A DNA stretch of 64,000 nucleotides from an uncultured Bacteroidales bacterium (GTDB lineage Bacteria > Bacteroidota > Bacteroidia > Bacteroidales > UBA932), in NCBI GenBank assembly GCA_900316795.1, contig ONEF01000009.1, positions 1 through 64,000 on the forward strand, written 5' to 3'. Both the position numbers and the translations under genes were made by a program. How positions within the stretch are numbered: position 1 is the stretch's first letter; the number at the start of each line of letters is the position of its first letter. Under the pieces are notes generated by a model. That model ran no database searches. It was not told the origin of the DNA and was given only the letters and a program-made list of their open reading frames with translations. This document shows, one piece after another, positions 452 through 63,589 of this stretch.

Positions 452-787
452 ATGCATTTTAGAGGACTTCTAACAGGAGTCCTCTTTGTTATATTGCTCT
501 TGGGTTCATTACAGATTTGCCGATATACAAACAGTTTCGGAGCCTGGCTTCCATGTGTTGTTCTGTTTGAAAAAGACAGCAGCCGGTACAAAAAGGTTCT
601 TCTTGCATCGCTGAGCATATTACTGTTTGTCATTCTGGTCCTCTCTAAATCAAGGGGTGCTTTTCTGCTATATATAATACGGACAGGTTCCGCTGATGTA
701 CGGCTTCTGATATGGTCATCAAGCGGCGAAGCATTCCTGAAAGCTCCACTTTTCGGTTATTCTTCCGTGGCTGTCCAGTCCCCGTAA
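452..787 (+). pseudogene. Relic of an O-antigen ligase / polymerase (Wzy_C-like)
   Basis: This 111-residue frame starts inside a terminator hairpin. It reads like two pieces of an O-antigen ligase with the centre missing. Residues about 30-72 show hydrophobic segments ending in LSKSRGAFLL, resembling the SRGA/SRAA segment of Wzy_C proteins. It then jumps to a segment like the later conserved block with an Arg-Leu-Leu-Ile-Trp core and APLFGYSS. Intact family members are around 400 residues or longer and have ten or more membrane helices. I read it as decayed DNA, not a functional short protein. A search of the translation against Wzy_C should match two separated parts of the family if this is right. 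Confidence 0.45.
461..485 (+). terminator. Rho-independent terminator-like hairpin
   Basis: The arms AGAGGACT (461-468) and AGTCCTCT (478-485) form a perfect 8-bp stem with a 9-nt loop, followed by TTGTTATATT. It lies 28 bases after the stop codon of the TonB-C-like gene. It overlaps the first codons of the open frame at 452-787, which suggests that frame is not a real gene start. Confidence 0.6.
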
Positions 788-830
788 AGGTAAAACTGCT
801 GTTTCAAAAGATAAGCAAGTTGCTGTAATT

Positions 831-3278
831 TTACTGAACTATACGCATTTTTGCAAATTTCAGGAGCAATGTCTTGCGGCCGTGTTCTTCAAAATCGACC
901 ACCGCTTTGAGATCCCCGGCATTTCCGCTCAGGGTAATAATCTTCCCAAAACCGAAACGCTCGTGCTCAACCCTCATACCTTCTCTCATACGGGTTGGTG
1001 CGTCTGCCACAAAGTTCTCATTCTTAGGCCTCAGCGATGAAGGCGATGTAAATTGCGGACGCTGCGGGGAAGATGTGGACTGCGGACGCTGCGGACGGGA
1101 AGGAGAGAACTGCTGGCGCTGAGGCCGGGAAAAAGAAGTGGATGACTGGCGCCCTGCACCATAATCATTTTGCCTTGCAAAACTGCCCAACCAACCAAAT
1201 CCTGAAGTGGTATGCCTTGGAACATCCTCATCCAGTGGATTCAGTATATACTGGCGGTCTATCTCCCTTATGAAACGGCTCGGGAGATTGTTCTCGTATT
1301 GGCCCCAGCGGAACCTGGAACGGGAAAAAGACAGCCTCACTGCATTTTCCGCCCTGGTAACAGCAACATAGAAAAGCCTGCGCTCTTCCTCAATCTCCTT
1401 CTCCGGATTGCCCAGAAGTCCACCGCTCGGGAAGAGGTTCTCCTCCATTCCCACTATATAGACATAAGGGAACTCAAGCCCCTTGGAGGAATGCACTGTC
1501 ATCAGAGATACGCGGTTGTCCTTTTCTTCCTCCTTCTGTACAGGACGGCTCACCTCGGAACTCTCCTGAGCAGAATCTGAATCGGCGACAAGAGCTATGT
1601 TCTGCAGGAAAAGGTCAACGGTTACGATTTCAGGCCCGTATTCTCCATCATCTCCGTATTGCTTGAACTCCTCAACGCCTTCATCCACAAACTCTTTAAT
1701 ACTGTCTATGAACTCCAGCACGTTTTCAAGGATGGTCTGCCCGTCAAGTGAAGTATCTGTCTTAAGAGCTGCCGTGATGCCGAATAGTGAATCCATCTCT
1801 TTAGCAAGCTGATAAGCATCCAGAGTCTGGGCATGGGAACGGAGGATATCCATTTTGGCAGCAAAATCCTTCAGCTTGTCAAGAGCAGCCTGTCTTATCT
1901 GGAACTGCTCGGCGGAAAATGTCATTACCGCTTGGCTCAGCGATGTTTTGTTTTCCAGTGATACTGCTATGACTCTCTCCATAGTAGTGGCGCCGATGCC
2001 TCTGGAAGGATAGTTTACGGTGCGCTTGAAAGCTTCATCGTCCTGAGGATTGGCAATCAGCCGGAGATATGCTATCATCCGCTTGATTTCAGTCCTGTCA
2101 TAGAAAGAGTGCCCGGCGTATATCTTGTAAGGAATGTTCTTCTTTCTCAGAGCCTCCTCAATGGCACGGCTCTGCGCATTGGTCCTGTACAGGACTGCAA
2201 AATCCTCATATCTTGCATGGGCCTGATGCATCTGGGACATTATGGAAGAAGCCACCAGCAAAGCTTCCTCCTGCTCAGTATAGGCCTGCAGCAGCTCTAT
2301 CTTCTGTCCCACGTCACGCTTTGAGTAACATTCCTTGGTTATGCGGCCTTTGTTCTTGCTGATGACGGAATTGGCGGCATTGACAATAGTCTGGGTGGAA
2401 CGGTAGTTCCTTTCAAGGCGGAACACTTTTGCATCGGGATAATCCTTCTGGAAATTGAGTATGTTCTCTATCCTGGCACCTCGGAAAGCATAGATGCTCT
2501 GGGCATCGTCCCCCACTACGGTTATGTTCTGATGATCCTGAGCCAAGGCTCTGAGGATAACATACTGGAGATAGTTTGTATCCTGATATTCATCCACGAG
2601 TATGAACTGGAACTTGGCCTTGATCTGTGCAAAAGCATCCGGGAAATGAGCCAGCAGACGATAAGTGTTCAGCAGGATATCGTCAAAATCCATCACCCCC
2701 TGTTCCTTGCAGCGTGTCTGGTAAAGCTGGTATATCTGGCTTATCTGGGGACGCCTGGTCCTTTTGTCAGACTCAACCAGTTCCGGATGGTTCAAGTACT
2801 CCTGAGGGGTTATGAAGTTGTTCTTGCACTCCGAAATGCGGCTGGAAATCTCTCCCGGCTTATAGACCTTGTCGTCCAGCTGCAGCTCCTTGATGCAGCG
2901 TTTGACCATAGCCTTGCTGTCATCCTTGTCATAAATGGTAAATCCCGGAGGAAAATCCAGCAGAGCGGCATATTGCCTGAGAAACCGCAGGAATATGGAA
3001 TGAAAAGTCCCCATATAAATCATCCTGGCGGACTTCTCCCCTACCATACCGGCTATCCTCTCCTTCATCTCCCTAGCTGCCTTGTTGGTAAATGTCAGCG
3101 CCAGAACGCTATATGGTTTGTATCCGTGAGAAAGTATGTTAGCAATCTTGCAAGTAAGCACCTTGGTTTTCCCGCTACCAGCTCCAGCCACTATCAACGA
3201 TGGCCCCGTAAGACACATAACAGCCTCTTTCTGAGCTGGGTTCAACCCTTCCAAAATATTGTTCCCTACATTTTCCAT
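831..3278 (-). CDS. uvrD: ATP-dependent DNA helicase UvrD/PcrA
   Basis: This is an 815-residue superfamily 1A 3'-5' helicase for nucleotide excision and mismatch repair and for clearing RecA or stalled RNA polymerase. All motifs are present in order: LNPAQKEAV (Q motif), GAGSGKT (Walker A, about residue 32), VDEYQDTN (Walker B), VVGDDAQSIYAFRGA, LERNYRSTQ, TVHSSKGLEFPYVYIVG and EERRLFYVAVTRAE. The C-terminus has a Ser/Pro/Arg/Gln-rich linker with repeated RPQ units, then a compact PcrA-type terminal domain (MRVEHERFGFGKI onward). The ATG at 3278 directly precedes the Q-motif region, and a -7 promoter element lies 9 bases upstream. The gene appears monocistronic. Two copies of the CTCAGCGAT motif (1030, 1936) lie inside it on the opposite strand. 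Confidence 0.95.
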   Translation of the reverse strand: MENVGNNILEGLNPAQKEAVMCLTGPSLIVAGAGSGKTKVLTCKIANILSHGYKPYSVLALTFTNKAAREMKERIAGMVGEKSARMIYMGTFHSIFLRFLRQYAALLDFPPGFTIYDKDDSKAMVKRCIKELQLDDKVYKPGEISSRISECKNNFITPQEYLNHPELVESDKRTRRPQISQIYQLYQTRCKEQGVMDFDDILLNTYRLLAHFPDAFAQIKAKFQFILVDEYQDTNYLQYVILRALAQDHQNITVVGDDAQSIYAFRGARIENILNFQKDYPDAKVFRLERNYRSTQTIVNAANSVISKNKGRITKECYSKRDVGQKIELLQAYTEQEEALLVASSIMSQMHQAHARYEDFAVLYRTNAQSRAIEEALRKKNIPYKIYAGHSFYDRTEIKRMIAYLRLIANPQDDEAFKRTVNYPSRGIGATTMERVIAVSLENKTSLSQAVMTFSAEQFQIRQAALDKLKDFAAKMDILRSHAQTLDAYQLAKEMDSLFGITAALKTDTSLDGQTILENVLEFIDSIKEFVDEGVEEFKQYGDDGEYGPEIVTVDLFLQNIALVADSDSAQESSEVSRPVQKEEEKDNRVSLMTVHSSKGLEFPYVYIVGMEENLFPSGGLLGNPEKEIEEERRLFYVAVTRAENAVRLSFSRSRFRWGQYENNLPSRFIREIDRQYILNPLDEDVPRHTTSGFGWLGSFARQNDYGAGRQSSTSFSRPQRQQFSPSRPQRPQSTSSPQRPQFTSPSSLRPKNENFVADAPTRMREGMRVEHERFGFGKIITLSGNAGDLKAVVDFEEHGRKTLLLKFAKMRIVQ

Positions 3279-6560: not shown

Positions 6561-7439
6561 ATGGATACTAACAAGAATACATACACCGTTATTTACACGA
6601 TAGTTCTGGTAGCTGTCGTGGCTACCATCCTGGCTGTAGTTTCCATAGGCCTCAAACCTAAGCAGCAGGAGAACATCAAGGTTGAGAAGCAGATGAACAT
6701 CCTGGGCTGCGACAATCTCGCCGCAGAAGCCAAGACAGCTTCCAACAAGAACGCCTACATTCAGGACGAGTTCAAAAAGTACATAACCGGAGCTCTGGTT
6801 GTCAACACCAGCGGTGAGGTTCTGGAAAGTTTTGACAGCGACATCGACAACTGCAATGCCTTCAAAGTTTCACCGGCAGACCAGTTTGACTTGATGAGGA
6901 AAATCGACGGCACCCAGGACCAGGCGGCTAAGGACGCCATGGTCAAAGACCTCAGGCTTCCTGTTTTCATCTGCTCCAACCCGGACGGGACAAAGCATTA
7001 CATTCTTTCCGGCTACGGAGCTGGACTGTGGGGCCCGATCTGGAGCTACATTGCCGTAAAGGAAGACGGAAAGATTGCAGGAGCACTTTTCGACCACGCC
7101 AGCGAGACTCCTGGTCTTGGAGGTGAAATCGTTACTGACAAGTTCCGTTCACAGTTTACCGGGAAGGTGATCCTCAGCGATGGTGAAATCATTCCTGTAA
7201 CAGTGGTCAAGGGAGGAAACGCCAATGCTGAAGCCAACGAGATCAACGCCATCAGCGGAGCCACCATCACATCTAAGGCTGTACAGACAATGATTTCAAA
7301 CTGGATGAACTACTACAAGCCATACCTCCAGAAGGTTGCTTCCGGAGCGGCTCATTCAGAAGCTCCTGTGGAGGTGGAGAACCCGAACGAAGAAACAATC
7401 GCTGAGCAAAACAGTGAACAAACAATCAAAACTGAATAG
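6561..7439 (+). CDS. nqrC: Na+-translocating NADH:quinone reductase subunit C
   Basis: The 292-residue subunit has one N-terminal membrane anchor (about residues 9-30) and a periplasmic FMN-binding domain. The motif ISGATITS places the FMN-linked Thr at residue 235. The ATG at 6561 (MDTNKNTY) is chosen because an upstream in-frame start would lie deep inside nqrB and add 63 residues unlike the family. nqrD starts 2 bases after the stop. The last 35 residues are an acidic, low-complexity tail. Two copies of the CTCAGCGAT motif fall here, at 7173 (coding strand) and 7398 (opposite strand). Confidence 0.95.
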   Translation: MDTNKNTYTVIYTIVLVAVVATILAVVSIGLKPKQQENIKVEKQMNILGCDNLAAEAKTASNKNAYIQDEFKKYITGALVVNTSGEVLESFDSDIDNCNAFKVSPADQFDLMRKIDGTQDQAAKDAMVKDLRLPVFICSNPDGTKHYILSGYGAGLWGPIWSYIAVKEDGKIAGALFDHASETPGLGGEIVTDKFRSQFTGKVILSDGEIIPVTVVKGGNANAEANEINAISGATITSKAVQTMISNWMNYYKPYLQKVASGAAHSEAPVEVENPNEETIAEQNSEQTIKTE

Positions 7440-10028: not shown

Positions 10029-10273
10029 TATTTATATCGCTGAGTATCAAGCAATAGCAAAAAACGCCCCACATCATACCATTCCCAGAGAACGCCCGCA
10101 TCATTCCTACAGAAATCTTGAATCTATATATGCCTCTCTGCATCCACATCCCCCCCCACTCCTTGCAACAAACTTCAACCTGATACTGCAAAAGTAAATC
10201 CACCAGGCAGCCTTCATCAGCTATATTCAACCAACACCCAAATTTCCTCAACGACCTCCCTGAAGGACCTGTA

Positions 10274-10784: not shown

Positions 10785-12290
10785 ATGAACAACGTTATAA
10801 GCATGAACCCGAACGCCATCGTGGCGTTCCTGCAAAAGAAGCCTTCCGACTTTACCAAGGAAGACATAATAAAGTATATCAAGGCCAACGGAATACAGAT
10901 GGTCAACTTCATGTACCCTGCCGGTGACGGGAGGCTCAAGACCTTGAATTTCGTCATCAGCGACGAGGATTATCTGAATACTATACTCTCCTGCGGAGAA
11001 AGAGTGGACGGCAGCAGCCTGTTCAAGTTCATCGAGGCTTCCAGTTCTGACCTCTATGTACTGCCCAGGTTCCGCACCGCATTCCTGGACCCGTTTGCCG
11101 AGATTCCTACGGTAACGATGCTCTGCTCTTTCTTCAACAAAGACGGAGAACCTCTGGAAAGCGCTCCGGAACACACATTGAGAAAGGCCTGCCAGGTTTT
11201 CAAGCAGAAGACCGGCTACGAGTTCCAGGCTATGGGAGAACTTGAATACTATGTGATTGCTGATGACCAGGACAACCTCTTTCCCGCTACGGACCAGAGA
11301 GGTTATCACGAGAGCGGCCCGTTTGCAAAATTCAACCAGTTCCGCACCCAGTGCATGCATTACATTGCCCAAGCCGGCGGACAGATCAAATACGGACACT
11401 CCGAGGTAGGAAACTTCACCCTGGGAGGAAAAATCTACGAACAGAACGAGATTGAGTTCCTGCCTACAGATGCGGAAGACGCTGCAGACCAGCTGACACT
11501 GGCCAAGTGGATTATCCGCAATCTGGGGAACGAGCTTGGTTATGACGTGACATTCGCCCCTAAGATCACATCAGGAAAGGCCGGCAGCGGACTGCACATC
11601 CACATGAAGATAACCAAAGACGGCAAGAGCCAGATGATAGAGAACGGTGTCCTTTCCGAGACTGCCCGCAAAGCCATTGCCGGAATGATGGTGCTGGCTC
11701 CTTCCATCACCGCTTTCGGGAACAAGGTGCCTACATCTTACTTCCGTCTGGTTCCTCACCAGGAAGCTCCTACAAACGTATGCTGGGGAGACCGCAACCG
11801 CTCCGTACTTGTCAGGGTTCCGCTGGGATGGACTGCCGGAGCTGACATGAGCAGCATTGCCAACCCTCTGGAAAAGCCTTCCGGAATTGACACTACCCAG
11901 AAACAGACCGTTGAGATGCGTTCTCCGGACGGAAGCGCTGATGTCTATCAGCTCATAGCCGCTCTCTGCGTAGCCTGCCGCATCGGCATAGAGATGCCGG
12001 ACGCTCTCAGAATCGCTGAGGAGAAATATGTCAACGTGAACATCCACGACTCCAAATATGCAGACAAGCTCGCCAAGCTCGAGCAGCTTCCGGACAGTTG
12101 CCAGCTGAGCGCAAAATGTCTTGAAAAACAGAGAGAGTACTACGAGAGAGAAGGCGTGTTCTCCTCCAACATGATAGACGGAATTATCTCTCAGCTTGAG
12201 TCTTACAGAGACGGTTCGCTGAGAAGGGAGATTGAGAACAAGCCTCAGGAAATGCTCCACATGGTAAAGAAGTATTTCCACTGCGGGTAA
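10785..12290 (+). CDS. glnA: Glutamine synthetase family protein
   Basis: At 501 residues it has the length of a GlnA-type class I enzyme, which makes glutamine from glutamate, ammonia and ATP. The N-terminal beta-Grasp region contains GERVDGSSLFKFIEASSSDL. The catalytic domain shows MGELEYYVI, SGLHIHMKI (metal and ATP site), VPTSYFRLVPHQEAPTNVCW and NRSVLVRVPL. It lacks the NRYKRL-type wording of canonical enterobacterial GlnA, so a GlnA-like role is possible, though the metal ligands look intact. It is monocistronic with its own promoter. A second Met at codon 7 is an alternative start. Confidence 0.85.
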   Translation: MNNVISMNPNAIVAFLQKKPSDFTKEDIIKYIKANGIQMVNFMYPAGDGRLKTLNFVISDEDYLNTILSCGERVDGSSLFKFIEASSSDLYVLPRFRTAFLDPFAEIPTVTMLCSFFNKDGEPLESAPEHTLRKACQVFKQKTGYEFQAMGELEYYVIADDQDNLFPATDQRGYHESGPFAKFNQFRTQCMHYIAQAGGQIKYGHSEVGNFTLGGKIYEQNEIEFLPTDAEDAADQLTLAKWIIRNLGNELGYDVTFAPKITSGKAGSGLHIHMKITKDGKSQMIENGVLSETARKAIAGMMVLAPSITAFGNKVPTSYFRLVPHQEAPTNVCWGDRNRSVLVRVPLGWTAGADMSSIANPLEKPSGIDTTQKQTVEMRSPDGSADVYQLIAALCVACRIGIEMPDALRIAEEKYVNVNIHDSKYADKLAKLEQLPDSCQLSAKCLEKQREYYEREGVFSSNMIDGIISQLESYRDGSLRREIENKPQEMLHMVKKYFHCG

Positions 12291-13769: not shown

Positions 13770-15439
13770 CGAATACGCCTGTGCAGGGGATGAAGGTTGT
13801 TGCAACGGGTACCGAGATTGTTGACAAAACCTAATCCTCGGGAATGGTAAGTTAATAGTACATAACCCCGTGGCCACTCAGGTTGCGGGGTTATTGTTTC
13901 TTTGGCAAGGAACTTCAGTGCGGTTTCTTTTCCGACTTCTACAGCGTTTATTTCCATACGGACAGGAGTCTTGTCCGCCTTTGAAGGGAAAACAGAAAAA
14001 CGGGCTGTTTCCGCCCCGAGCATAGCCGTATTCAGGGCAAGGTCCGCATCAGGAATCAGCTTTCCTGCCTTGATCTCCCCCACCTTGCACCCGAACATCT
14101 TGATGCAGGACGGCTCCTTTGAACCAAGAACCTGCTGTACCTTCAACATCCTTTCCTGAAGTTTTCCGTCTGACGGCAGCATATAAACGATGCTTGAAGA
14201 CTTGTCATGGAAAAAGTCCATATCCAAATTGCTGACGGGCCTGCTGACTGAAGGACCGTGTTTCCTGAAAACAACCTCAGCGGCCCCTGCTATCTTCTGG
14301 ATTCCGGACTGCCCAAAGCTTTTTTGCTTCCCGGCTCCGGACCTGAACTGAGCCGCACGCTTTCTGAGCACGGCAAAGAACTGGCCTTCACCTGGAACGA
14401 GGCCGGGCACGAACTGATACCCGAAAGGAAGTTTGACAACCCCTTTTCTGCCTGCGAAGCCTATCGCAGAGGAAACTATGTCATCCAGTTCTGCAATTTC
14501 AGCCCCAAGTTCCTCAGCGATGTATTTGACATTGTCTCCGTTTTCCAGATGGTTGTAAGTGCAGGTGGAATAGACAAGAAGGCCTCCTTCTCTGAGAGCA
14601 GGCCATATATCTTCTATTATGGAACGCTGCAGGGCGGCACACTCTTCAACGCCCTTCAGGCTCCAGCCGGATACTGCATCCGCACTCTTTCTGAACATTC
14701 CTTCTCCTGAGCAGGGAACATCGGCCAGAATTACATCAAAGAAACCATCCAGTTTTCCGAGGTTACGGGCAGAAGTGCTTGTTACTATTACATTTGCAGC
14801 CCCCCACTTAGCAATGTTGTCCGTCAGGGGAGGAACTCTCTTTCCCACAGCCTCATTGCAAACTACAAGAGGCAGCTTTTCTGAGAACCTTGACTCCAAA
14901 AGATTTGCCGTAGAAGATGATACCGTAGAATCTGCCGGAGAAATTGCAGTATGGAGGCCGTTGACCAATGAAACCAGATGAGTGGATTTCCCGCCCGGAC
15001 TTGCACACAGATCCAGGACATTTGAGTTGCCGGAGCTTATTGTCTTTCTTATAAGTCCAACCAGCAAAGACAGGAACATGCTGGAAGAATCCTGGACATA
15101 ATACGCCCCGCAATGGAAAGCAGGATCCAAGGTGAAGGATCGTCTTTCTTTCAGGAAACAGGCTTCCCTGCACCAAGGCACCGCCCCGGCAAAAACACTG
15201 GCCATACCAACGCCACCGGAACTTCCTTCAGGAACATCGTTGAGACCGCCTTCAGATGCATCGCTGAGCATATCTTTCTCAGCGACAGATGATTTGGATG
15301 GGTTTATTCTTATAGAAACTTCAGCCGGCTCTCCGGAAGAAACGGTATGCAAAAGAGAGTCTGCCGCATAATCCGGCAAAGACTCTCTCAACAACTTTTC
15401 AAAGTCTTCAGACAGAAACAAATCATCGCTGCGGTTCAT
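13757..15439 (-). CDS. rRNA (cytosine-C5)-methyltransferase, NOL1/NOP2/Sun family (RsmF-like)
   Basis: The 560-residue protein carries the SAM site VLDLCASPGGKST, the loop ILADVPCSGEGMFRK and the catalytic Cys motif STCTYNHLENG. Its C-terminus (GYVLLTYHSRGLGF, NNLGTRCNNLHP) fits the RNA-binding tail of RsmF-like enzymes. It is longer than usual because of two in-frame low-complexity stretches: a Gly/Ser/Asp-rich one around 15190-15290, and a Ser/Thr-rich one around 14870-14970 between the SAM motif and the next conserved strand. It is the third gene of pyrE-SRPBCC-rsmF and starts 23 bases after the SRPBCC stop. Its exact target cytosine cannot be read from sequence. Confidence 0.88.
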   Translation of the reverse strand: MNRSDDLFLSEDFEKLLRESLPDYAADSLLHTVSSGEPAEVSIRINPSKSSVAEKDMLSDASEGGLNDVPEGSSGGVGMASVFAGAVPWCREACFLKERRSFTLDPAFHCGAYYVQDSSSMFLSLLVGLIRKTISSGNSNVLDLCASPGGKSTHLVSLVNGLHTAISPADSTVSSSTANLLESRFSEKLPLVVCNEAVGKRVPPLTDNIAKWGAANVIVTSTSARNLGKLDGFFDVILADVPCSGEGMFRKSADAVSGWSLKGVEECAALQRSIIEDIWPALREGGLLVYSTCTYNHLENGDNVKYIAEELGAEIAELDDIVSSAIGFAGRKGVVKLPFGYQFVPGLVPGEGQFFAVLRKRAAQFRSGAGKQKSFGQSGIQKIAGAAEVVFRKHGPSVSRPVSNLDMDFFHDKSSSIVYMLPSDGKLQERMLKVQQVLGSKEPSCIKMFGCKVGEIKAGKLIPDADLALNTAMLGAETARFSVFPSKADKTPVRMEINAVEVGKETALKFLAKETITPQPEWPRGYVLLTYHSRGLGFVNNLGTRCNNLHPLHRRIRQNI

Positions 15440-31849: not shown

Positions 31850-31883
31850 ATCTCTCTTATTTCTACTCAGCGATGGTCTTTCT

Positions 31884-48722: not shown

Positions 48723-51416
48723 TTAAGCCCCCTGCAGGTCTTTGAAGGTCTTGAAGGTGTAGCCTTTTTTCTTCAGGTACATGATAATCTCCCTAACGCG
48801 GTTGTACAGGCGGTCACTTTCAGGGCGGGATTCTTCAATGCCGGGATGGATCAGGATTATGGCACCGTTAAGTGTATGTTTGGCCTCGTAAGCAAAGAGG
48901 CGGTCTATCAGTTTCTGGGCATCCACGTAAGAGCTCATGGATGGTATGGTGTAGTCTGCCGGTGTAGCCGTTCCCTGGGTGTAGTTAATCGGGATGTAGC
49001 CTGCACGGGAGAGAATGTTCACAGATTCTGTGTTGTAGTGCTCGTAAGGCGGCAGCAGGAACCTGGACTGGCTCTGAAGAACGCCGAATTTCTCCAGTTC
49101 CCTGGCATTGAGACGAATGTCTGCATAGATACTGTCTTTGGATACGAGCATTGAGTCTCTGTTGCCGTCCCAAGGAGCATAGAGAAGATGTTTGTCTGAA
49201 TGGCCGCTTACATAATGGCCTTCGCTGACAATCTTCTGTATGATTTCCTGGAACTCAGGTTTGCGGAGGGCGTTGCCGGTAAAGAAGAAAGAGCCCTTCA
49301 CTTTCTCCTTGGCCAACTGTTTGAGAATCTTCTCTCCACCGTTGAACATTTCGTCGGCAGAGAAGATCAGGTAGATTTCCTTCTTTGACGGGTCCAGCCT
49401 GCGGATTGCTCCATAGCTATCCTTTACAGCTTTGTGTAGAAAGCTGGAAGAAGCGCCGGAAGGGAGGTTGCCGGACGGCACACCACCGGAAAGGCTGTTT
49501 GCGCTCATTTTCTGAAGGTTACCATCCTGCTCCAATGTGGCGAAGTAATATGTCAGACCTGCCGTACCATCCATGGTTGGCTCATTGGTTGCATAGTCAC
49601 CGATGTCGTTATGGTAAACGGCTATGCCTCGGTTCAGGGCAGGAGTCTTGTCCGGCTCCCTGAGACCGCCTCCGGCTCTGGAGGAGAAAATGAAATTATA
49701 AACCGGACCGTCTATCAGTCCGCCGGTTATCTCCCTGTGTTCCAAAGTGAAGGCCGAATGGGGCAATGTAGGCAGAGTACCGCCTTTCGGATAGCCTATT
49801 ATCATTGAGACACCCCAAGGGTTGCAGCCGAGGAGCCAGTCTCTTAGGGCCGCTTCCATCTCCAGGTATGTGGAGTCTCCGGTAAGCCTGCGGTAGAGCT
49901 GAGCCTGGGTGACGGCTGCGCTGGTAAGGTTGTTGGAACACCACAGGTATGGAACGCCGTGCATGAACGGATCGTCCCCGGCACGGTTCCGGAGGTCCTG
50001 CAGGCCTTCTTTCATGAATTCAGTGTATTTGAGCTTGAGGGCCTCGTCTCCTGCCTCAGCCTGGAGGAAATGGCCGAGGTTTATGAACGGGTAGAACTGG
50101 TAGTGCCTGCCTCTTCCGAGCTCTATCCACGGAGAAACCGGTTCCTGCTCCCCGTAGTAGTCTGCTTCTTCCTGGTATGCAGGATTTTTTGTGGTGGAGT
50201 AGAGTGTGGCGGCAGCCAGCTCCACGTCATCTGTCCAGGTGTCTTCCTCGTAGAAGTATCTTGATATGTAGCAGGCGGTCTGGGTGTTGCCTGGAACCTC
50301 TTTGGCATATTCATAGGCAGGAGCGGCCTTGGCGGCAATCTGGCGCGCAAACTGAGGGTCTATCGCAGAGAACACTTCTCCGCCAAGGGCGAAAGCTGAA
50401 GCGAACTTGCCTGCTGCTGAAGACACTCCGGTGGTGCGGTTCTTCCCGAACTTGCCCATCCCCTGAGGCTTGCCGGTCAGGTAATATACGGGACGCCCGT
50501 TGCCCGGGCCCCAACCGTAGTCTGCTGTGTCGAACTGCGGAGGTTTGAAGCCGATATGATCTCTGTCATCAGCGATCTGGGTGAACATCACCCTGTCTTC
50601 AGGATTCATCTTGACCAACCAGTCCAATCCCCAGCGGGCCTGGTCCAGAATGTCGGGAACTCCATTTGCACCTGGCCTGCCGTCTGCCTGGAACCTGTCA
50701 GCGAACACGCTCTTGTCCTCTATCCACTTCCACGCGAACATCATGTGGTATGTAGCGGTGGCGCTTGTAGTCTGATACTGAAGGTAGTCTGAGGCATCGT
50801 GCCAGCCTCCCCTGACATCTATCTTCTCGCCGTTGCGGTCCGGATGATCCACTATGTAGCCGTCCAGCTGGTGGCAGAGGGTATCTGTGAACGGGTTGTA
50901 GCCGCACTGCTGCTGCCTCATGTAATAGAGCAGGATGTCAGCCGCGCCGTCATAGACGTCCGCCCCTATCTTGAATATAGGGGAATAAGCTCCCTTGAAC
51001 CTGATATAATAGCCTCCTGGTTTCTGGAAAGCGGTGAAATTGAGCCTATACGCATCTTTGACAGCCCACTTGGAACCATCTGCCTGATCCGCCCTGCCGG
51101 AAAAGACCGGAAGATCTGTCACGGCATCAAACACCACGAACTCTTCATTTGAAGAGCCGCGGTTACCATCAGTCAGACGGCTGTCCAAATCAACTTTCCC
51201 CGGCCTCCTTGTCCAAGCTGTCTGCCCGGAAGCGGAAACTTGGGTATCAAGCTTTTCAGCTTGGTCCAAAGGCTCATCCACGGACTTCTCCTCAAAATAG
51301 ACTGCAACCTTCACGCTCTTTGGAAGATAGCCTACATAGTTGATTCTGATGTGCTTCTGCGCCAAAACAGCAACGCTCAAAAAAATCGCTGAGAAAAACA
51401 GAAATAATCTTTTCAT
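48723..51416 (-). CDS. GH9 endoglucanase-like enzyme fused to a NodB-type polysaccharide deacetylase
   Basis: The 897-residue exported protein has a signal peptide (MKRLFLFFSAIFLSVAVLAQ), then a cellulase N-terminal Ig-like domain (about 22-140: IRINYVGYLPKSVKVAVYFE). A GH9 catalytic domain follows (about 150-625) with the Asp pair in GGWHDASDY (Asp207, Asp210) and acid Glu612 in NEPTMDGTAGL. The C-terminus (about 660-897) is a NodB-like deacetylase: IFSADE in place of TFDD, GHYVSGHSDKHLL (metal His pair), RFLLPPYEHY and AIILIHPG. Likely outer-membrane-side beta-glucan cleavage. The deacetylase substrate is unknown. The open frame extends 130 codons further upstream, but ATG 51416 begins the signal peptide. 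Confidence 0.88.
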   Translation of the reverse strand: MKRLFLFFSAIFLSVAVLAQKHIRINYVGYLPKSVKVAVYFEEKSVDEPLDQAEKLDTQVSASGQTAWTRRPGKVDLDSRLTDGNRGSSNEEFVVFDAVTDLPVFSGRADQADGSKWAVKDAYRLNFTAFQKPGGYYIRFKGAYSPIFKIGADVYDGAADILLYYMRQQQCGYNPFTDTLCHQLDGYIVDHPDRNGEKIDVRGGWHDASDYLQYQTTSATATYHMMFAWKWIEDKSVFADRFQADGRPGANGVPDILDQARWGLDWLVKMNPEDRVMFTQIADDRDHIGFKPPQFDTADYGWGPGNGRPVYYLTGKPQGMGKFGKNRTTGVSSAAGKFASAFALGGEVFSAIDPQFARQIAAKAAPAYEYAKEVPGNTQTACYISRYFYEEDTWTDDVELAAATLYSTTKNPAYQEEADYYGEQEPVSPWIELGRGRHYQFYPFINLGHFLQAEAGDEALKLKYTEFMKEGLQDLRNRAGDDPFMHGVPYLWCSNNLTSAAVTQAQLYRRLTGDSTYLEMEAALRDWLLGCNPWGVSMIIGYPKGGTLPTLPHSAFTLEHREITGGLIDGPVYNFIFSSRAGGGLREPDKTPALNRGIAVYHNDIGDYATNEPTMDGTAGLTYYFATLEQDGNLQKMSANSLSGGVPSGNLPSGASSSFLHKAVKDSYGAIRRLDPSKKEIYLIFSADEMFNGGEKILKQLAKEKVKGSFFFTGNALRKPEFQEIIQKIVSEGHYVSGHSDKHLLYAPWDGNRDSMLVSKDSIYADIRLNARELEKFGVLQSQSRFLLPPYEHYNTESVNILSRAGYIPINYTQGTATPADYTIPSMSSYVDAQKLIDRLFAYEAKHTLNGAIILIHPGIEESRPESDRLYNRVREIIMYLKKKGYTFKTFKDLQGA

Positions 51417-51543: not shown

Positions 51544-51573
51544 GCAGTTGTAAGAAAAATAACACTCAGCGAT

Positions 51574-53400
51574 ATGAAATTCTGGAAAGCTTTTCTTGCC
51601 GCCTTGCTGGGATGCCTGGTGGCAATGATTCTTAACTTGTTCCTGTTCTTTATGTTCATCGGAGCATTGATGTCTGCAGGAGGCTCAACCGAAAACATTC
51701 CTTCGGTAAGCAACAATTCTATCCTCAAGATAGACTTGTCCCAAACTATAGGCGAACGCACCCAGGAGGGTATGAGCGCTGACCTCGGCATCCCTTTCAT
51801 GAGCATGCCTCAGGCTTCATTGGGAATCTATGATGCAATCAAAGCCATAGAGAAGGCTGCCTCCGACAGCAAGATATCCATGATGCTCATCACAGACAAG
51901 GGCCTTTCAAGCAGCGGCATGACTCATCTGGAAGAACTACGAGACGCTATATCAAAGTTCCACGACAGCGGAAAGCCTATAGTGGCCTACGGAATGAACT
52001 ATTCCCTCGGCGGATACTACATAGCCAGCGCAGCTGACAAGATCTACATCCACAATGAGGGTATGCTGTCCATCAAGGGTTTGGGAGCCAGCATGATGTT
52101 CTACAAAGACCTTCTTGACAAGGTTGGTGTGGACGTGCAGCTGATACGCCACGGCAAATTCAAGGCTGCCGCAGAGCAGTTCATCAAAAACGACATCAGC
52201 CCTGAGAACCGCCAGCAGAACATGGAGATGCTCAACTCCATCTGGGGCGACTGGTCAGAGCAGATCTGCAAGAGCCGCAACATAGACCTTGCCACATTCA
52301 ACCAGGCCATTGACGAACTTAAAATCGGCACTCCTGAGTCTGCAAAGGAACTCAACCTGGTTGACGAGACCGTAAACACAGACGAATACACAGAGAAAAT
52401 CTGCAGCCTCGTAGGCGTGGAAGACGAGCAGCAACTGAGCGTGATAACTCTGGACAAGTATGCCAAGACTCTGACTCCAAGCCTCAAGGGAAAGGCAAAG
52501 GTAGCCGTACTCTACGCAGAAGGAGAGATTGTTATGTCAGGCAGCGGACTTGCAGCTAACAAGTTTGCATCACAGGTGAACAAAATCCGCAAGGACGAGA
52601 CCATAGACGCTGTCGTTCTCAGAGTAAATTCTCCTGGTGGAGACGCTCAGGCTGCTGAGCTGATGAGAGAAGCCCTGCAGAAACTTTCTGCCGCAAAGCC
52701 AGTCATTTGCAGCTTCTCGGAATATGCAGCCAGCGGCGGATACTGGATCTCTGCCCAGGCAAAGCATATCTTCTCAGACAAGACAACCCTTACAGGCTCA
52801 ATCGGAGTATTCTCTCTTGCAGTGAATTACGGAAAGGGGCTCAAGGAACATCTGAAGGTCAACTCAGTCCAGTTAGGAACCCATAAGCACGCAACGATGG
52901 GAGATATGTCCAGGCAGATGGACCAGGAGGAAGTTGCCTACAACCAGAAATTCGTAGAACAGATCTACACCAAGTTCATGAACATCGTTTCAGACGGAAG
53001 GAACATGAGCGTTGCAGATGTTGACTCCATCGCGCAAGGAAGGGTATGGACAGGAACACAAGGCCTGGAAGTAGGCATCGTGGACGAGATAGGCGGAATT
53101 GAGGATGCCATCAAATATGCCGCCTGCCTTGCTCTGGGAGAAGATGTTTCCGGCTACAGGAATCTGGATGACAGCCAGTACAAAGTAGCTGAGTTCCCTA
53201 AGACAAAGACTCAGATGGAACTCATCATGGAAAGCTTCAGCGGAAAAGAGGACGCATCGCTGAGAAAAGTGATTGAAGTCTTGGGCCTTGAGAAAACCGT
53301 AAACGCACAAGAGCTGGACAACCTGATAAGGGAGTTGAATGGAAGCAAAAAGGCAAAGGCCTACGCCAGAATACCTTACGCATACCAGTTCAACTACTGA
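51574..53400 (+). CDS. sppA: Signal peptide peptidase SppA, 67K type
   Basis: The 608-residue membrane-anchored serine protease clears cleaved signal peptides. It has one N-terminal helix (about 7-33) and two tandem ClpP-like domains. The catalytic dyad is visible: Lys195 in IRHGKFKAAAEQF in the first domain and Ser387 in YAASGGYWISAQA in the second. SPGGDAQAAELMREAL and TTLTGSIGVF are further signatures. An in-frame extension upstream of 51574 has no matching content. It converges on tilS, with 5 bases between the stops. Confidence 0.93.
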   Translation: MKFWKAFLAALLGCLVAMILNLFLFFMFIGALMSAGGSTENIPSVSNNSILKIDLSQTIGERTQEGMSADLGIPFMSMPQASLGIYDAIKAIEKAASDSKISMMLITDKGLSSSGMTHLEELRDAISKFHDSGKPIVAYGMNYSLGGYYIASAADKIYIHNEGMLSIKGLGASMMFYKDLLDKVGVDVQLIRHGKFKAAAEQFIKNDISPENRQQNMEMLNSIWGDWSEQICKSRNIDLATFNQAIDELKIGTPESAKELNLVDETVNTDEYTEKICSLVGVEDEQQLSVITLDKYAKTLTPSLKGKAKVAVLYAEGEIVMSGSGLAANKFASQVNKIRKDETIDAVVLRVNSPGGDAQAAELMREALQKLSAAKPVICSFSEYAASGGYWISAQAKHIFSDKTTLTGSIGVFSLAVNYGKGLKEHLKVNSVQLGTHKHATMGDMSRQMDQEEVAYNQKFVEQIYTKFMNIVSDGRNMSVADVDSIAQGRVWTGTQGLEVGIVDEIGGIEDAIKYAACLALGEDVSGYRNLDDSQYKVAEFPKTKTQMELIMESFSGKEDASLRKVIEVLGLEKTVNAQELDNLIRELNGSKKAKAYARIPYAYQFNY

Positions 53401-53405: not shown

Positions 53406-55268
53406 TTACCGGGCTATAGAAGCTGAGACAACAAGAAGCTTTTTGCTCAGCGATGTGACACGGAAACGGTCATCGATTTCCAGGGACGGGAGGCAGACAA
53501 TCTTTCCGTCCCTGTCTGTTATAGCCGGGAGGATACTCTTGAAGAGCAGGTCCACCTTCCGGGAATTGAGAAAGTCCGCAACCTTCTTGCTTCCGTGAAG
53601 CCCGAAAGGAGAAAAACGGTCTCCTTCACGGATTAACCTGCAAACCAGAGGAAAACGCACATTGCCAGCATCTAGGACACTTAAACCCTTTACAGAGTCC
53701 TTGTCCAATAAAGATGCTTCTTTCTCCTCCAGTTTGATTGAGAATGGACCGAAAGGATAAACTCCGGCAGCTTTAATCTCGACTGGCGGAATATCGCTTT
53801 TATGAAACTTGTACAGCCTCAACTCCCCTCTTTCTATCGTAGCCGTGTGGTTCTCCAGCCTGACTATCTTGGTAGTTAGGGACTTGGTGTCTAGAGTCTT
53901 GGTAGTGTGGGTTTCTGTTTCAAGACAGGAAACAATGCTTTCCAGCTCGTCTTCGCTGAGAGGAATATCAAAATAGCGGAACAACTCAGCAAGACAGAAT
54001 CCAGCACTTTCCGGCAAATGAGCCTCAGTACCGCCCGGCAAATGAGCCTCGACGCTGCCAGAGGTAACAAGTTTCTCAGCAGAAGCCCTGAAAACAAGAT
54101 ACTTTCTCCTCAGTGCCTCTACTATGCCGCAACCACCTGCTGATCCACTGTCCACAAGCAAGGACTCAACTTTGGTCCTCACAAGTTTGTCCACCTGAGA
54201 GTTAAGCTCCCTGAATCTTGAAATCTCCCTGCCAAGCGTCTGTACTACGGACGGATTGATTTCCGTCAGAAGCGGAATTACCTGGTTGCGGATCTTGTTT
54301 CTTGAGTATTCGTTCTGGGAATTAGTCCGGTCTATGCAGAAGTCAAGATGATTCTCCTTAGCATAGGCCTCAATCTCAGACCTTTCTACCTGAAGCAGCG
54401 GACGCAGGACATTCAGTGTCAAAGGTTCCTTGCCTGATTTTTGGCTCTCAGCCCCTCTTCCTGTATGCTTAAGTTGACCGTATGGACGGATTCCTCCAAG
54501 CCCCCTGCGACCGGTTCCTCTGACAAGGTTCAGAAGGAGAGTTTCTGCGTTGTCGTTGGCGTTGTGGGCGGTAAGCAAAAGGTCAAAACCATGCTTTGCC
54601 GCAATGTCACAAAACCAGTTGTAACGGAGTTCACGGGCCGCCACCTCAACAGAGAGCTTATGAGCTGAAGCGTACGCAAGCGTATCAAAATCTGCAGTAT
54701 AGAACTCAAAACCATATCGCAGAGAAAGGTTGCGGACAAACTCCTGGTCATGGTTTGAGTCTTCCCCCCGAAGATGGAAATTCACGTGAGCCACCCCTAT
54801 CCTACCATCCTTGCCACCAGACCCACACTGCCCCGCATCTGCAACACCAGACCCACACTGCCCTGCACCTGCAACACCAGACCCGCACTGTCCGGAATCT
54901 GCAACACCAGACCCACACTGCCCCGCATCAGCAACACGACACCCGTTATCAGACATGAAACTGCTTATTCCATTGGGATACAACTTGTAGATGACATCAG
55001 CCAAAACAGAAGAATCCACACCGCCGCTGACAGCCAGAAGAATGTTACATCCTCCAGGATTAAACAAACAACATCCTTCAGGAGATAACGAACCACATCC
55101 TTCCGGAGATAATGAACCACATCCTTCCGGAGCTGCAATATCATCACTCACTCCAGAAACGTAGCAAGAAGGATGTCCGCAAAACGGAGACATACAGAAA
55201 CTCCGGAAAGAGGCTGTAACTCTCTCCAGAACCTTTTTCGTTATTTGTTTTCCCTTGTCCATTCTCAT
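53406..55268 (-). CDS. tilS: tRNA(Ile)-lysidine synthase with several repeat insertions
   Basis: TilS converts C34 of tRNA-Ile(CAU) to lysidine and is normally essential. The PP-loop ILLAVSGGVDSSVL, VAHVNFHLRGEDSNHDQEF and LLTAHNANDNAETLLLNLVRG are intact, as is a C-terminal domain (GDRFSPFGLHGSKKVADFLN). The protein is 620 residues, against about 430-450 usual. The excess is four low-complexity inserts: PEGCGSLS repeats before the PP-loop, VADAGQCGSG repeats after the first helix, EAHLP repeats in the middle, and a Thr/Lys-rich stretch near residue 450. All keep frame and avoid the active site. Starts 55268 and 55262 are both possible. Confidence 0.9.
   Translation of the reverse strand: MRMDKGKQITKKVLERVTASFRSFCMSPFCGHPSCYVSGVSDDIAAPEGCGSLSPEGCGSLSPEGCCLFNPGGCNILLAVSGGVDSSVLADVIYKLYPNGISSFMSDNGCRVADAGQCGSGVADSGQCGSGVAGAGQCGSGVADAGQCGSGGKDGRIGVAHVNFHLRGEDSNHDQEFVRNLSLRYGFEFYTADFDTLAYASAHKLSVEVAARELRYNWFCDIAAKHGFDLLLTAHNANDNAETLLLNLVRGTGRRGLGGIRPYGQLKHTGRGAESQKSGKEPLTLNVLRPLLQVERSEIEAYAKENHLDFCIDRTNSQNEYSRNKIRNQVIPLLTEINPSVVQTLGREISRFRELNSQVDKLVRTKVESLLVDSGSAGGCGIVEALRRKYLVFRASAEKLVTSGSVEAHLPGGTEAHLPESAGFCLAELFRYFDIPLSEDELESIVSCLETETHTTKTLDTKSLTTKIVRLENHTATIERGELRLYKFHKSDIPPVEIKAAGVYPFGPFSIKLEEKEASLLDKDSVKGLSVLDAGNVRFPLVCRLIREGDRFSPFGLHGSKKVADFLNSRKVDLLFKSILPAITDRDGKIVCLPSLEIDDRFRVTSLSKKLLVVSASIAR
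54811..54930. repeat. Four 30-bp in-frame repeats inside tilS
   Basis: Four units of 30 bp start at 54811, 54841, 54871 and 54901. Each encodes VADAGQCGSG or a near variant, and a partial fifth follows. Separate 24-bp repeats (PEGCGSLS) lie at about 55069-55140, and EAHLP repeats at about 54010-54057. Confidence 0.9.
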
Positions 55269-55495: not shown

Positions 55496-56527
55496 TCATT
55501 TCTTGTAGGTTCCTATCGTGTAGGAGAAACTGAGGCCGAAAACCTCCTTGAACTGCACTCGAGGGCATTCATGCCCCGCCTTGTTGGCAATCTTGATCTT
55601 GTCGTCGTAAATGAGGTTAGTCCTCAGCGATGCCTTGAAGTATTTGTTGAGAACATAATCTGCCTGGACATCCCAATAAACCACTATGTTTGTTGGAGTT
55701 CCCAGATAATCAGAGAATAGCGACAGCTGAGAGGCAACCTTGAAGTCCTTTGTCAGGGACTTGGAGAAAGTGGCCTTGAGCTGGGCACCGAGCTCCCACC
55801 TTATAGGCCGGTTGAACTTGTTTCCGTACTTTACCCTGAGGGCGCTGTCTGCCTGAACGATTACCATGCTTCCTGTAAGAGGAGCAAAGTTCAGGGAGAA
55901 AACCTTTCCGTTGCCAGGTTTCCAGTCCATACCAAGACCGACAGTCAAATAGCCCGGAGCCAGAAACTTGGACTTCATCTTGGCCTCGTTGTTCTTGTTG
56001 TAGTCAAAGCCGGGGGAGAACTGGCTCTTGAAGTTCATGAAGGCAGAAAAATAGATCTTCTTGTATGCCTGGTAGCCCCACTTGCTGTCAAGGATGATGC
56101 GGTCTTCACTCTTGCGGTAGCCAACATCAAAACTCTGGACGAAACCGTAGCCCAGCTGGGCTCTGTTGTCCCAGAACATCTTTCCCTTGGCATAGTTGGC
56201 CATACCGTTCAGATACGCGTTGAAAGCGAGGGATCCGCTGCCTCCCGCCGCCCAGTTCGTAAGGGACACCTGGGAGAAGATAAGCTCGTCATTGACACCT
56301 ATGGTCCAGAACTTAGGGGAAGGGCCGCCGTAATCAACCTCAGGAGTCGGAAAGTTAAGGCCAATAAGCCTTACAAGTTCCTGCTCGCTGCTAAGTCCGC
56401 TCTGTATCGGCTGCGGCTTCTTGCGGATAGTGTCTCCCCAGAAACCTATCTTTATCTGAGAATTGGCCGCTCCTGCCGACAGCAAAAGGCAGAAAACACA
56501 GAGTAATATTCTTAACCTTCTTTTCAT
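55496..56527 (-). CDS. DUF3078 outer-membrane protein
   Basis: The 343-residue exported protein has a signal peptide (MKRRLRILLCVFCLLLSAGA) and the DUF3078 pattern: FSQVSLTNWAAGGSGSLAFN, MFWDNRAQLGYGFVQ, SLFSDYLGTPTNIVVYWDVQ, ending in aromatic LSFSYTIG. It is probably an outer-membrane beta-barrel of unknown role. It is widely conserved in Bacteroidetes. A CTCAGCGAT copy (55623) lies on the opposite strand. Confidence 0.85.
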   Translation of the reverse strand: MKRRLRILLCVFCLLLSAGAANSQIKIGFWGDTIRKKPQPIQSGLSSEQELVRLIGLNFPTPEVDYGGPSPKFWTIGVNDELIFSQVSLTNWAAGGSGSLAFNAYLNGMANYAKGKMFWDNRAQLGYGFVQSFDVGYRKSEDRIILDSKWGYQAYKKIYFSAFMNFKSQFSPGFDYNKNNEAKMKSKFLAPGYLTVGLGMDWKPGNGKVFSLNFAPLTGSMVIVQADSALRVKYGNKFNRPIRWELGAQLKATFSKSLTKDFKVASQLSLFSDYLGTPTNIVVYWDVQADYVLNKYFKASLRTNLIYDDKIKIANKAGHECPRVQFKEVFGLSFSYTIGTYKK

Positions 56528-57338: not shown

Positions 57339-58817
57339 TTAATATGCCCTTGCAAATACTACACGGCGATGAGAAGGCTTGCCTGAATAGACGCACTTGC
57401 CTTCCTCTTCACACACGCAGGAGTCAATCGGGATGCAGCGGATGGTCGCCTTTGTCTCCTCCTGGATCCTGGCCTCTGTTTCTGCTGTTCCGTCCCAATG
57501 GCAGAGCAGGAATCCGCCCTTTTCTATCTGGCTCTTGAAATCGTCCCAAGTGTCGACCTTGTAAATATGCTCATCCCTGTAAGCCAATGCTTTAGCATAT
57601 ATATTCTTCTCTATCTCATCCAACAGGCCCTTTACATGGTCCACGATACCGTCAATTCCCATGCTCTCCTTTGTAAGAGTATCTCTGCGGGCAACTTCCA
57701 CGGTGTTGTTCTCAAGGTCTCTCGGACCTATGGCAAGTCTTACAGGAACACCCTTGAGTTCCCATTCCGCAAACTTGAAGCCGCTGCGAACGTTCTCCCT
57801 GTCGTCTATCTTTACGCTGATTCCCAACTTGTCCAGCCCAGCCTTGATTTCCTTCATCTTGGCCAAAACTGCATCCAGCTGTTCAGGCTTGTTGAAGATA
57901 GGAACCATAACTACCTGTATAGGAGCAAGGTTTGGAGGAAGAACGAGCCCGTTGTCGTCTCCGTGAGCCATGATGAGAGCACCCATAAGCCTTGTAGAAA
58001 CACCCCAGGATGTTGCCCATACGTACTCCAAACCTCCGTCTTTGCTCTGGTACTTCACGTCAAAGGCCTTTGCAAAGTTCTGGCCCAGGAAATGTGATGT
58101 ACCGGCCTGGAGAGCTTTTCCGTCCTGCATCATAGCCTCGATGCAGAGAGTGTCTATGGCACCGGCAAACCTTTCGCTCTCAGTCTTGTGCCCCACCACA
58201 ACCGGCAGAGCCATATAATTTCTTGCAAAGTCAGCATATACACCTACCATCTTCTCTGCCTCAGCGATGGCTTCAGCCTGGGTGGCATGTGCTGTATGGC
58301 CCTCCTGCCAGAGGAATTCAGCCGTACGCAGGAAGAGTCTGGTGCGCATCTCCCAGCGTACCACATTCGCCCACTGGTTAACCAGAATCGGAAGATCGCG
58401 ATAAGAACTTATCCAGTTCTTGTAGGTGTTCCAGATAATAGTTTCAGACGTAGGCCTTACAACCAGCTCTTCCTCCAGCTTGGCTGAAGGGTCCACTACC
58501 ACGCCCGGACCGTCCGGATTGGTCATCAGACGGTGATGGGTGACTACCGCACATTCCTTTGCGAAACCTTCCACGTGCTCGGCCTCACGGCTAAGGAAAG
58601 ACTTAGGGATGAAAAGAGGGAAATAGGCATTCTCGTGCCCGGTTTCCTTGAACATCTTGTCCAGCTGATGCTGCATCTTCTCCCATATAGCATAGCCATA
58701 AGGTTTTATTACCATACATCCTCTGACTGCCGAATTCTCGGCCAGACCAGCTTTAACAACAAGGTCGTTATACCACTGGGAGTAATTCTCCTGTCTTGAA
58801 GTTATCTGCTTTGCCAT
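57339..58817 (-). CDS. proS: Prolyl-tRNA synthetase, type 3 (archaeal-like)
   Basis: The 492-residue class II enzyme of the short ProS type lacks the editing insertion. Visible parts: [17 protein letters not shown]-like N-terminus, [15 protein letters not shown], motif 2 [20 protein letters not shown], motif 3 [20 protein letters not shown], and the C-terminal zinc-binding-like end [20 protein letters not shown]. Length and order are normal, without the extra inserts seen in HisS and TilS. Confidence 0.95.
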
Positions 58818-62093: not shown

Positions 62094-62795
62094 AAGAAAA
62101 CTGATAGAATTTGGACCTTCGTTAAAAAGAAGGTCAACAATTGAAAGACCTGAGACAAAACCCTGCTTGGCAGAAAAGACCTGCCAGTAGGGTTTTTCCT
62201 TTCCCCATTCTTTCATCAGCGACGGCTCTTTGCTCTTAGGATGTATCCTGTATCTGAGGTCAATGATATCTCCTTCCTGACATCCAGAAGGAATATCCGC
62301 CAGCAGAGAACCTGGATCCGAAATCACAGATATGCTCCCTTTTGACTGAGTTGCTGGAAGATATTCCCCGGTAAGATGGAATTCCGCCTTAATTCCGCAG
62401 AAACTGGACAGGAGTTTTATAAAATTGAGATTGAAGTTGAACAGAAGTTTTTCTCCGCTACAAAGGATGTCCTTGATCTCATCCTTGTAGTAAACGAAGA
62501 ACGGAGAACTCATATATGCAGCCTCCATAGCCCTGAAATGACGGACAGGCCAGTTCTCCGAATAGTCTATTTCTATTTCCGAAATGGGAAGACAGTGGGA
62601 AAAACTGTCCCCGCCTCTTTTGACGGGGATGTTCAAGTTCATTTTGCCGTTTGCAGTGAGAATCGTGCAACGGTTTCTGTAAGACTGCTTCTGGTAAGTT
62701 TCGCAAGCCTCTATCCAAACCTGCCCGTATCTTGCAACAGCAGCAAAATACTCTACCGGTGGGAGATAGGCCGTGCTAAGAAGAACAGAGGGCAT
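62088..62795 (-). CDS. WbqC family protein
   Basis: The 235-residue protein of the WbqC-like family has ACETYQKQSYRNRCTILTAN, NIPVKRGGDSF, DYSENWPVRHFRAMEAAYMS and the closing GFVSGLSIVDLLFNEG all in place. Family members are linked to surface-sugar synthesis, but no reaction is firmly known. Its ATG overlaps the lpxA stop (TAATG), so it is co-translated with lpxA. Confidence 0.85.
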   Translation of the reverse strand: MPSVLLSTAYLPPVEYFAAVARYGQVWIEACETYQKQSYRNRCTILTANGKMNLNIPVKRGGDSFSHCLPISEIEIDYSENWPVRHFRAMEAAYMSSPFFVYYKDEIKDILCSGEKLLFNFNLNFIKLLSSFCGIKAEFHLTGEYLPATQSKGSISVISDPGSLLADIPSGCQEGDIIDLRYRIHPKSKEPSLMKEWGKEKPYWQVFSAKQGFVSGLSIVDLLFNEGPNSISFLQ

Positions 62796-63589
62796 TATTC
62801 GTCCTCGTCCTGATGGGAGTCATACCTTATGATGCCTCTCTTTGATGCGGCTATGAAATCCAGGATTGTCTTCTTCTCTTCTGAGTCCGGAAGCTCAGCC
62901 TGTGCTTTCTTGCAGGCCTCAGTAACGTTGAGACCACTCTGGTAGATTACCCTATAGACATCGCGTATCCTGTCTATCTGCTCCAGTGTAAATCCTCTGC
63001 GCCTGAGGCCGACGATATTGACACCGCGGAAGACCAGAGGCCTCTTGCCGACTATGGAATAAGGAGGTACATCCTTGGAAAAAGCTGACGCGCCGCTGAT
63101 CATGGCGTGGCAGCCAATGTGGGTGAACTGATGCACAGATGAATTTCCTCCGACAATAGCCCAGTCATCAACATCAGTTTCGCCGGCAAGTCCTGTATAA
63201 CTTACCAGAATGACATTGTGCCCCAGACGGCAGTCGTGAGCCACATGGACGTATGCCATCAGGAAGCAGTTGTCCCCTATTATGGTCTTGTTCTTTCCGC
63301 TGGCGGCTGTACCACGGCTGACGGTGCAGTACTCACGGATCATCACGTTGTTGCCGATCTCCACATAAGACTCTTCTCCCTTGTATTTGAGGTCCTGCGG
63401 AATAGCTCCTATGATGGCCCCGTTGAATATTTTGCAGTTGTTTCCGATTTTCACGTAATCATTGATGGTCACGTTCGGGCCAATCCAGCAGTTGTCTCCT
63501 ATCTCCACATGCTCAGCGATGCAGCAGAAAGGGCTGATTACAACATTCTTTCCGATCTTGGCTTTTGGATGGACAATAGAATTTTCCAT
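62795..63589 (-). CDS. lpxA: Acyl-[ACP]-UDP-N-acetylglucosamine O-acyltransferase
   Basis: The 264-residue enzyme catalyses the first step of lipid A synthesis. The N-terminal left-handed beta-helix shows hexapeptide repeats (IHPKAKIGKNVVISPFCCIA onward). The catalytic-region His lies in MAYVHVAHDCRLGHNV, and QFTHIGCHAMISGASAFSKD precedes the helical C-terminus that binds acyl-ACP. It lies 22 bases downstream of the fabZ-type gene, as in the Bacteroidetes lpxC-fabZ, lpxA order. Confidence 0.95.
   Translation of the reverse strand: MENSIVHPKAKIGKNVVISPFCCIAEHVEIGDNCWIGPNVTINDYVKIGNNCKIFNGAIIGAIPQDLKYKGEESYVEIGNNVMIREYCTVSRGTAASGKNKTIIGDNCFLMAYVHVAHDCRLGHNVILVSYTGLAGETDVDDWAIVGGNSSVHQFTHIGCHAMISGASAFSKDVPPYSIVGKRPLVFRGVNIVGLRRRGFTLEQIDRIRDVYRVIYQSGLNVTEACKKAQAELPDSEEKKTILDFIAASKRGIIRYDSHQDEDE

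Follow-up and report, generated by a model that had tools for sequence, protein, structure and literature searches.

Uptake tags, by which naturally transformable bacteria favour DNA of their own kind, have been reported for two proteobacterial families, both of which possess type IV pili. The DNA uptake sequence (DUS) of the Neisseriaceae is described as a short, non-palindromic word present in many copies (roughly 1,900 for the 10-mer of Neisseria; Frye 2013), without orientation bias, in excess in non-coding DNA, in part arranged as inverted pairs, and found in species-level dialects that share a common core, one of them set apart by an insertion (Frye 2013; Bakkali 2007). Even spacing and enrichment of mismatched forms are also reported for known uptake sequences, including the uptake signal sequence (USS) of the Pasteurellaceae (Bakkali 2007), for which uptake is described as pilus-based, with ComN, a minor pilin of the type IV class, proposed as receptor. 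In the Bacteroidota, Riemerella columbina is reported to prefer its own DNA in natural transformation. Transformation of R. anatipestifer is described as requiring ComEC, DprA, ComF and RecA, along with four proteins that do not resemble known components of uptake systems; one of these is an HHH protein and another is predicted to lie in the outer membrane. No pilus gene is named as essential in that description. Here, we analyse a word, CTCAGCGAT, that is strongly over-represented in the first 64,000 nucleotides (the window) of contig ONEF01000009.1 of an uncultured Bacteroidales bacterium (assembly GCA_900316795.1). By analogy with these systems, CTCAGCGAT is a candidate DNA uptake sequence and part of a system with dialects in the Bacteroidales, a reading to which we give a probability of about 0.6. 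Among the titles listed in searches of the open-licence literature, none concerned an uptake sequence in this order.

Among the window's 44,212 different 9-mers, the word ranks first with 24 copies, 15 on the plus strand and 9 on the minus strand, all at the positions listed by an earlier, sequence-only reading of this DNA, whose estimate of about 0.5 expected copies agrees with 100 dinucleotide shuffles (mean 0.48, maximum 3). The excess extends to the host genome (G000; 2.32 Mb, or 2,321,131 bases, in 27 contigs, 92.75% complete), which contains 543 copies (287/256 by strand, an exact-copy density of 234 per Mb), while the reversed-word control gives 3. In a 301-kb sample of this genome, CTCAGCGAT is again the top 9-mer (96,429 distinct words), with 84 copies seen and 2.5 expected under a third-order Markov model, i.e., a 34-fold excess. 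The coding copies of the window read IAE, SLR/SLS, LSD or SAM/SAI, in several frames and on both gene strands. The genome counts and this diversity of reading support the proposal of the sequence-only reading that the signal is genome-wide, is carried by the DNA itself and is not one codon phrase. Of the four copies it regarded as intergenic, those at 10036, 31866 and 47687 are confirmed by the gene caller, but the one at 51565 falls within a predicted gene (48723-51761) with a doubtful N-terminus; the gene caller places three further copies, at 607, 38730 and 53256, in intergenic DNA. The single-mismatch copy noted at the hisS start is present as ATCGCTGAA at 45946-45954.

Relatives of the host carry this word, a second one, or neither in high number. 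Among the 39 genomes of its genus, CTCAGCGAT (dialect A) is abundant in 11 (168-625 copies), while G175 holds 76 copies, ten genomes 16-52 and the other 17 only 1-11. De novo k-mer scans of five members of the genus that are poor in CTCAGCGAT (3-18 copies) recovered in its place CTGTCGGGA together with overlapping words. This dialect B, which the sequence-only reading did not foresee, reaches 125-717 copies in 12 of the 39 genomes (717 in G003, 586 in G045, 485 in G164, 432 in G169, and 125-380 in eight others), in which reversed-word controls do not exceed 21. The two dialects are mutually exclusive, as no genome of the genus is strong in both: B counts reach at most 37 in the 11 strong-A genomes, and A counts at most 18 in the 12 strong-B genomes. 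The degenerate B form CTRTCGNGA occurs 1,500 times in the single-contig genome G003 (744/756 by strand; control 93); G140, in which A is weak, has 284 copies (control 80).

Strong enrichment of CTCAGCGAT is restricted to the host genus among 149 family members sampled, of which 12 are from that genus, the highest count elsewhere in the sample being 53 (G129; control 8). Across 295 genomes of the order, counts of the B word outside the family peak at 100, in G373 (control 17). In the sister genus g19 of the family, 11 genomes hold 50-150 copies of the B word (controls 9-33), which would make the word there a faint or decaying relative of B. Genus g52, from another family, has 62 copies of CTGTCGGGA in G202 and 64 in G409 (controls 7 and 6) and 5 in G315 (control 3); these counts, and similarly that of G373, possibly represent a weak related dialect. 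The 80 named relatives retrieved with hisS are mostly metagenome-assembled genomes of Bacteroidales, many of ruminant origin.

No clear motif emerged when 60-80 kb from each of G027, G151, G152 and G119, all of the genus, were scanned de novo, nor from 60 kb of each of G010, G077 and G041, which belong to other genera. The samples from G038, G020 and G161 (11-26 kb) were too short for such a scan, although the last shows CCCGACAA-type words, and the scan of G168 is dominated by a local repeat. In G171, the A word is not among the listed top words of 40 kb, yet it is present in 168 copies genome-wide. A candidate third dialect, GCATCTGAAC, with 40 copies in 74 kb of G061 (L110-L113), was rejected: it is absent from a further 92 kb and its flanks are conserved over 20 nt on both sides, so that it is a local or protein repeat family.

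The specificity of the motif was derived from the counts of every single substitution at each position, in G003 for B and G000 for A. The resulting spectra are C-Y-R-T-C-G-N-G-A for B and D-T-C-G-C-N-G-A-D for A, and CTCAGCGAT is better written as 5'-H-ATCGCTGAG-S-A-W-N-A. We infer that the two cores correspond, RTCG-N-GA in B aligning with DTCG-CN-GA in A, which would leave a common TCG...GA and one additional spacer base in A. Intermediate forms, such as CTATCGGGA, occur in G140 and G162 (8 in 100 kb and 6 in 80 kb). The excess over the third-order Markov model is 34-fold in G000 and 87-fold in G003 for exact matches, falls to 3.0- and 3.4-fold with one mismatch, and is about 1 with two or three. 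Singly mismatched forms are enriched in a manner graded by position, as for a bound site. The main forms are non-palindromic, and both dialects have an asymmetric, A-rich 3' tail, at coding sites too: adenine occupies position +6 at 77% of 127 B sites and position +2 at 66% of the A-dialect sites (out of 84, or of those sufficiently distant from an end). In the Pasteurellaceae USS, the core is likewise followed by an AT-rich flank. The palindrome ATCGCGAT is also over-represented (10 in the window counted over both strands, i.e., 5 places, for 0.42 expected; seen also with the G000 samples L158-L169), and is likely a permitted variant of the motif.

The order in which the dialects arose was approached with a midpoint-rooted tree of one protein, a glycoside hydrolase family 9 (GH9)/deacetylase, taken from 30 of the 39 genomes (G172 is among the nine that the tree does not cover). 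An outer clade of nine comprises six strong-B genomes, the weak G061 and G149, and G151 with neither word; the next branch inward unites the B genomes G003 and G169; and an inner clade of 19 (support 82/81, not starred) takes in every genome of the tree in which A is strong or weak. A is thereby nested among B lineages, and, given this root, a single switch from B to A would be the simplest account.

The arrangement of the sites was examined with the leading strand inferred from GC skew and strand use tested against the prediction from base composition. No significant polarity beyond composition was found: the degenerate motif of G003 has 173 leading and 157 lagging sites (50% predicted; p=0.35), the exact word of G000 is at 45:38 (p=0.38), and the exact B word of G003 is borderline at 80:47 (55% predicted leading; p=0.075). 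Sites are spaced more evenly than random in G000 (p=0.034) and G003 (p=0.004), and in 21 sampled 20-kb stretches of G003 there is no regional clustering (from 1 to 11 sites per stretch; mean 6.05, variance 5.35). Intergenic copies are in excess, with 16 of 84 in G000 (8.9 expected; p=0.02) and 33 of 127 in G003 (13.5 expected; p=9e-7). Coding copies favour some frames, and their sense/antisense ratios are 37:31 and 54:40. Pairs at most 40 bp apart in G003 and G000 are inverted in 13 cases (8 and 5) and direct in none, where random placement gives each genome about 4 inverted and about 4 direct pairs; other B samples add one of each, for a total of 14:1. The inverted-pair counts by themselves do not exceed the random maximum.

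The sequence-only reading had named four candidates, namely a Chi-like site, an uptake sequence, a KOPS-like site and a HIP1-like element, among which the data favour the uptake sequence: the absence of significant orientation bias, the even spacing, the intergenic excess, the enriched mismatched forms and the dialects all correspond to traits reported for known uptake sequences. A mark comparable to HIP1 of cyanobacteria, a very abundant short word of unsettled role, or another mark of this breadth, could be spread by repair or methylation bias instead of uptake. The even, unpolarised distribution over coding and intergenic DNA and the over-representation of the palindromic relatives ATCGCGAT and CTGTCGCGACAG would agree with such a genome-wide mark. 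HIP1 is, however, described as palindromic and tied to methyltransferases, whereas the main forms here are non-palindromic and carry an asymmetric tail, and we regard this explanation as unlikely, if still worth bearing in mind.

The main named rival is a Chi-like hotspot, at which AddAB would stop degrading DNA, self DNA being spared and repaired, and for which the dialects would reflect altered AddAB specificity. Like Chi, which is recognised by RecBCD or AddAB, the motif is a short over-represented word that could mark self. A candidate enzyme exists, judged by domain only, as 38 of the 39 genomes contain PDDEXK_1, the nuclease domain of AddB/AddA, and the exact B word leans towards the leading strand. 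E. coli Chi reportedly depends on its 3' flank, which the asymmetric A-rich tail would fit. Yet the motif fails on polarity and strength: the same script, applied to 200 kb of E. coli, gave 31:6 for Chi (p=0.0004), unlike the unpolar ratios above, and a Chi excess of 2.4-fold (1.4-fold under a third-order model), compared with 58-158-fold for the exact words under a second-order model. Moreover, known Chi sites are 5-8 nt long and the motif with its tail exceeds this length, and PDDEXK_1 is also present in motif-poor genomes (e.g., G027, G151 and G061). A Chi-like role is thus disfavoured and appears rather improbable. More doubtful still is a self-marker of some other defence or DNA-processing system that spares word-bearing DNA, Chi- or uptake-like but neither; the self-tag pattern, with exclusive dialects in one genus and apparently no pilus, would suit it, but no candidate gene was found, though the four family queries were not aimed at defence systems. 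A replication or segregation site, like the FtsK-orienting polar sequences (KOPS), matS, or SlmA or Noc sites, would also be short, genome-wide and present in many copies, but the lack of significant polarity and of regional clustering in G003 makes it very improbable. A plain codon phrase or a scattered protein repeat, for which the favoured frames might speak, is scarcely credible in view of the genome counts and of copies that use several frames and both gene strands, are in excess in intergenic DNA and form exclusive dialects within a genus. For comparison, the local repeat of G061 was recognised by its conserved flanks and clustering.

In the uptake reading, a putative surface receptor would prefer the word, and free DNA would enter through that receptor. 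DNA of dead kin that happened to mutate into the word would be imported and recombined more often, so that copies would build up at positions where coding and regulatory constraints allow them. A shift in receptor specificity would then lead to a slow re-tagging of the genome, here giving the dialects B and A. The more specific proposal, that uptake is sequence-specific but pilus-independent, and that its specificity was switched within one genus by a change of the core spacer (TCG-N-GA to TCG-CN-GA), making the tags of sister species mutually unreadable, stands in our view at even odds.

Competence machinery in the genus is plausible from domain matches. Of the 39 genomes, 38 have a ComEC domain, usually within a short frame, and all have HHH_3 proteins, each genome having one in a frame of 191-450 aa; some HHH_3 matches, in frames near 715 aa, are presumably Tex-like. 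The genus shares with Riemerella its phylum, its ComEC and HHH proteins and a possible preference for own DNA. The R. columbina candidate k-mer differs in being A-rich (AAAAATAAAA, 301 copies vs 56 expected) and is not a strong tag like CTCAGCGAT. To our knowledge, the type IV pilus is the only kind of receptor machine known for uptake sequences, and it seems to be absent here.

Several observations weigh against an uptake sequence. None of the 39 genomes has a T2SSE/type IV pilus ATPase (PF00437) above cut-off, pilins not having been searched; 31 have short sub-cut-off matches only, and 13 of 14 controls pass. A receptor would consequently have to be non-canonical. The ComEC proteins are short, with PF03772 as the sole domain found (357 aa in G000, L291:5629-6702; 445 aa in G003, L293:6532-7869), and ComEC and HHH_3 proteins are present in motif-poor genomes too, so that gene content does not track the motif. 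Sixteen of the 39 genomes are below threshold for both A and B, the exact B word leans to one strand in G003, and the density of dialect A is below that reported for the Neisseria DUS. The B-to-A order is drawn from a single gene under midpoint rooting. Finally, in 24 aligned comparisons with A relatives at 76-79% identity (9 with G150, 9 with G108, 2 with G097, 4 with G160), the exact word is kept in 5, barely above the background of 12.5-14.8%. Several of the remaining aligned sites hold a permitted variant, and this low conservation of single sites fits rapid turnover, although it proves no force. Since site density lasts while single sites come and go, a continuing force that maintains it is suggested.

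The motif works like a DUS with dialects. It differs in belonging to the Bacteroidales, in its sequence and in the lack of a pilus ATPase above cut-off, and we know of no ComP-like receptor for it; because the pilus feature was looked for and not found, we do not assign it to the pilus-based DUS/USS systems. If CTCAGCGAT is an uptake sequence, it would be an independent tag in Bacteroidota without a type IV pilus, and self-biased uptake would have evolved again with other machinery. It would also offer a route to a Bacteroidota DNA receptor, by way of a protein that diverged in step with the dialect, and imply that natural transformation shapes the genomes of uncultured gut bacteria. Should it serve another purpose, a 34-87-fold excess of a switchable word would still need a mechanism.

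Within the window, intergenic sites are located at 607..615 (minus), 10036..10044 (minus), 31866..31874 (plus), 38730..38738 (plus), 47687..47695 (plus) and 53256..53264 (minus); the fourth is near a gene start and is preceded, 18 bp before and in opposite orientation, by the variant ATCGCCGAT. Two plus-strand sites (1030..1038 and 1936..1944) lie within a UvrD/PcrA-like helicase gene (831-3278, minus strand). An FMN_bind gene holds one site on each strand, 7173..7181 (plus), reading LSD, and 7398..7406 (minus), reading IAE. An RsmF-like gene likewise holds 14513..14521 (plus), reading IAE, and 15260..15268 (minus), reading LSD, with an inverted near-copy, CTCAGCGAC, 18 bp further on. Minus-strand coding sites are found at 12012..12020 (IAE), 21575..21583 (LSD) and 26088..26096 (SAM), and a plus-strand one at 36579..36587. 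The remaining coding sites on the plus strand can be followed in relatives. The hisS site at 45027..45035 has an exact aligned copy in G150, as does 63512..63520; 55623..55631 is exact in G150 and G160; 58260..58268 is exact in G150 and reads CTCGGCGAT in G108 and G160; 53446..53454 has the permitted variant CTCTGCGAT in G150 and G108; and 48528..48536 is not retained in G150, G108, G097 or G160. Two sites fall in the GH9/deacetylase frame, one in the N-terminal part of the gene (51385..51393, minus) and one in its upstream part (51565..51573, plus), the latter possibly intergenic.

This frame (48723-51806) encodes a GH9 cellulase fused to a polysaccharide deacetylase. In many relatives, the match starts only near residue 100-130 or later, and the true start may therefore lie downstream. 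The words CTGGACAAG/CTTGTCCAG are also enriched in the window (15 vs 1.7) and may be a coding phrase. In the 301-kb sample of G000, a tandem-like ACCTCATCACC / ATGAGGTGATG repeat is present in about 20 copies.
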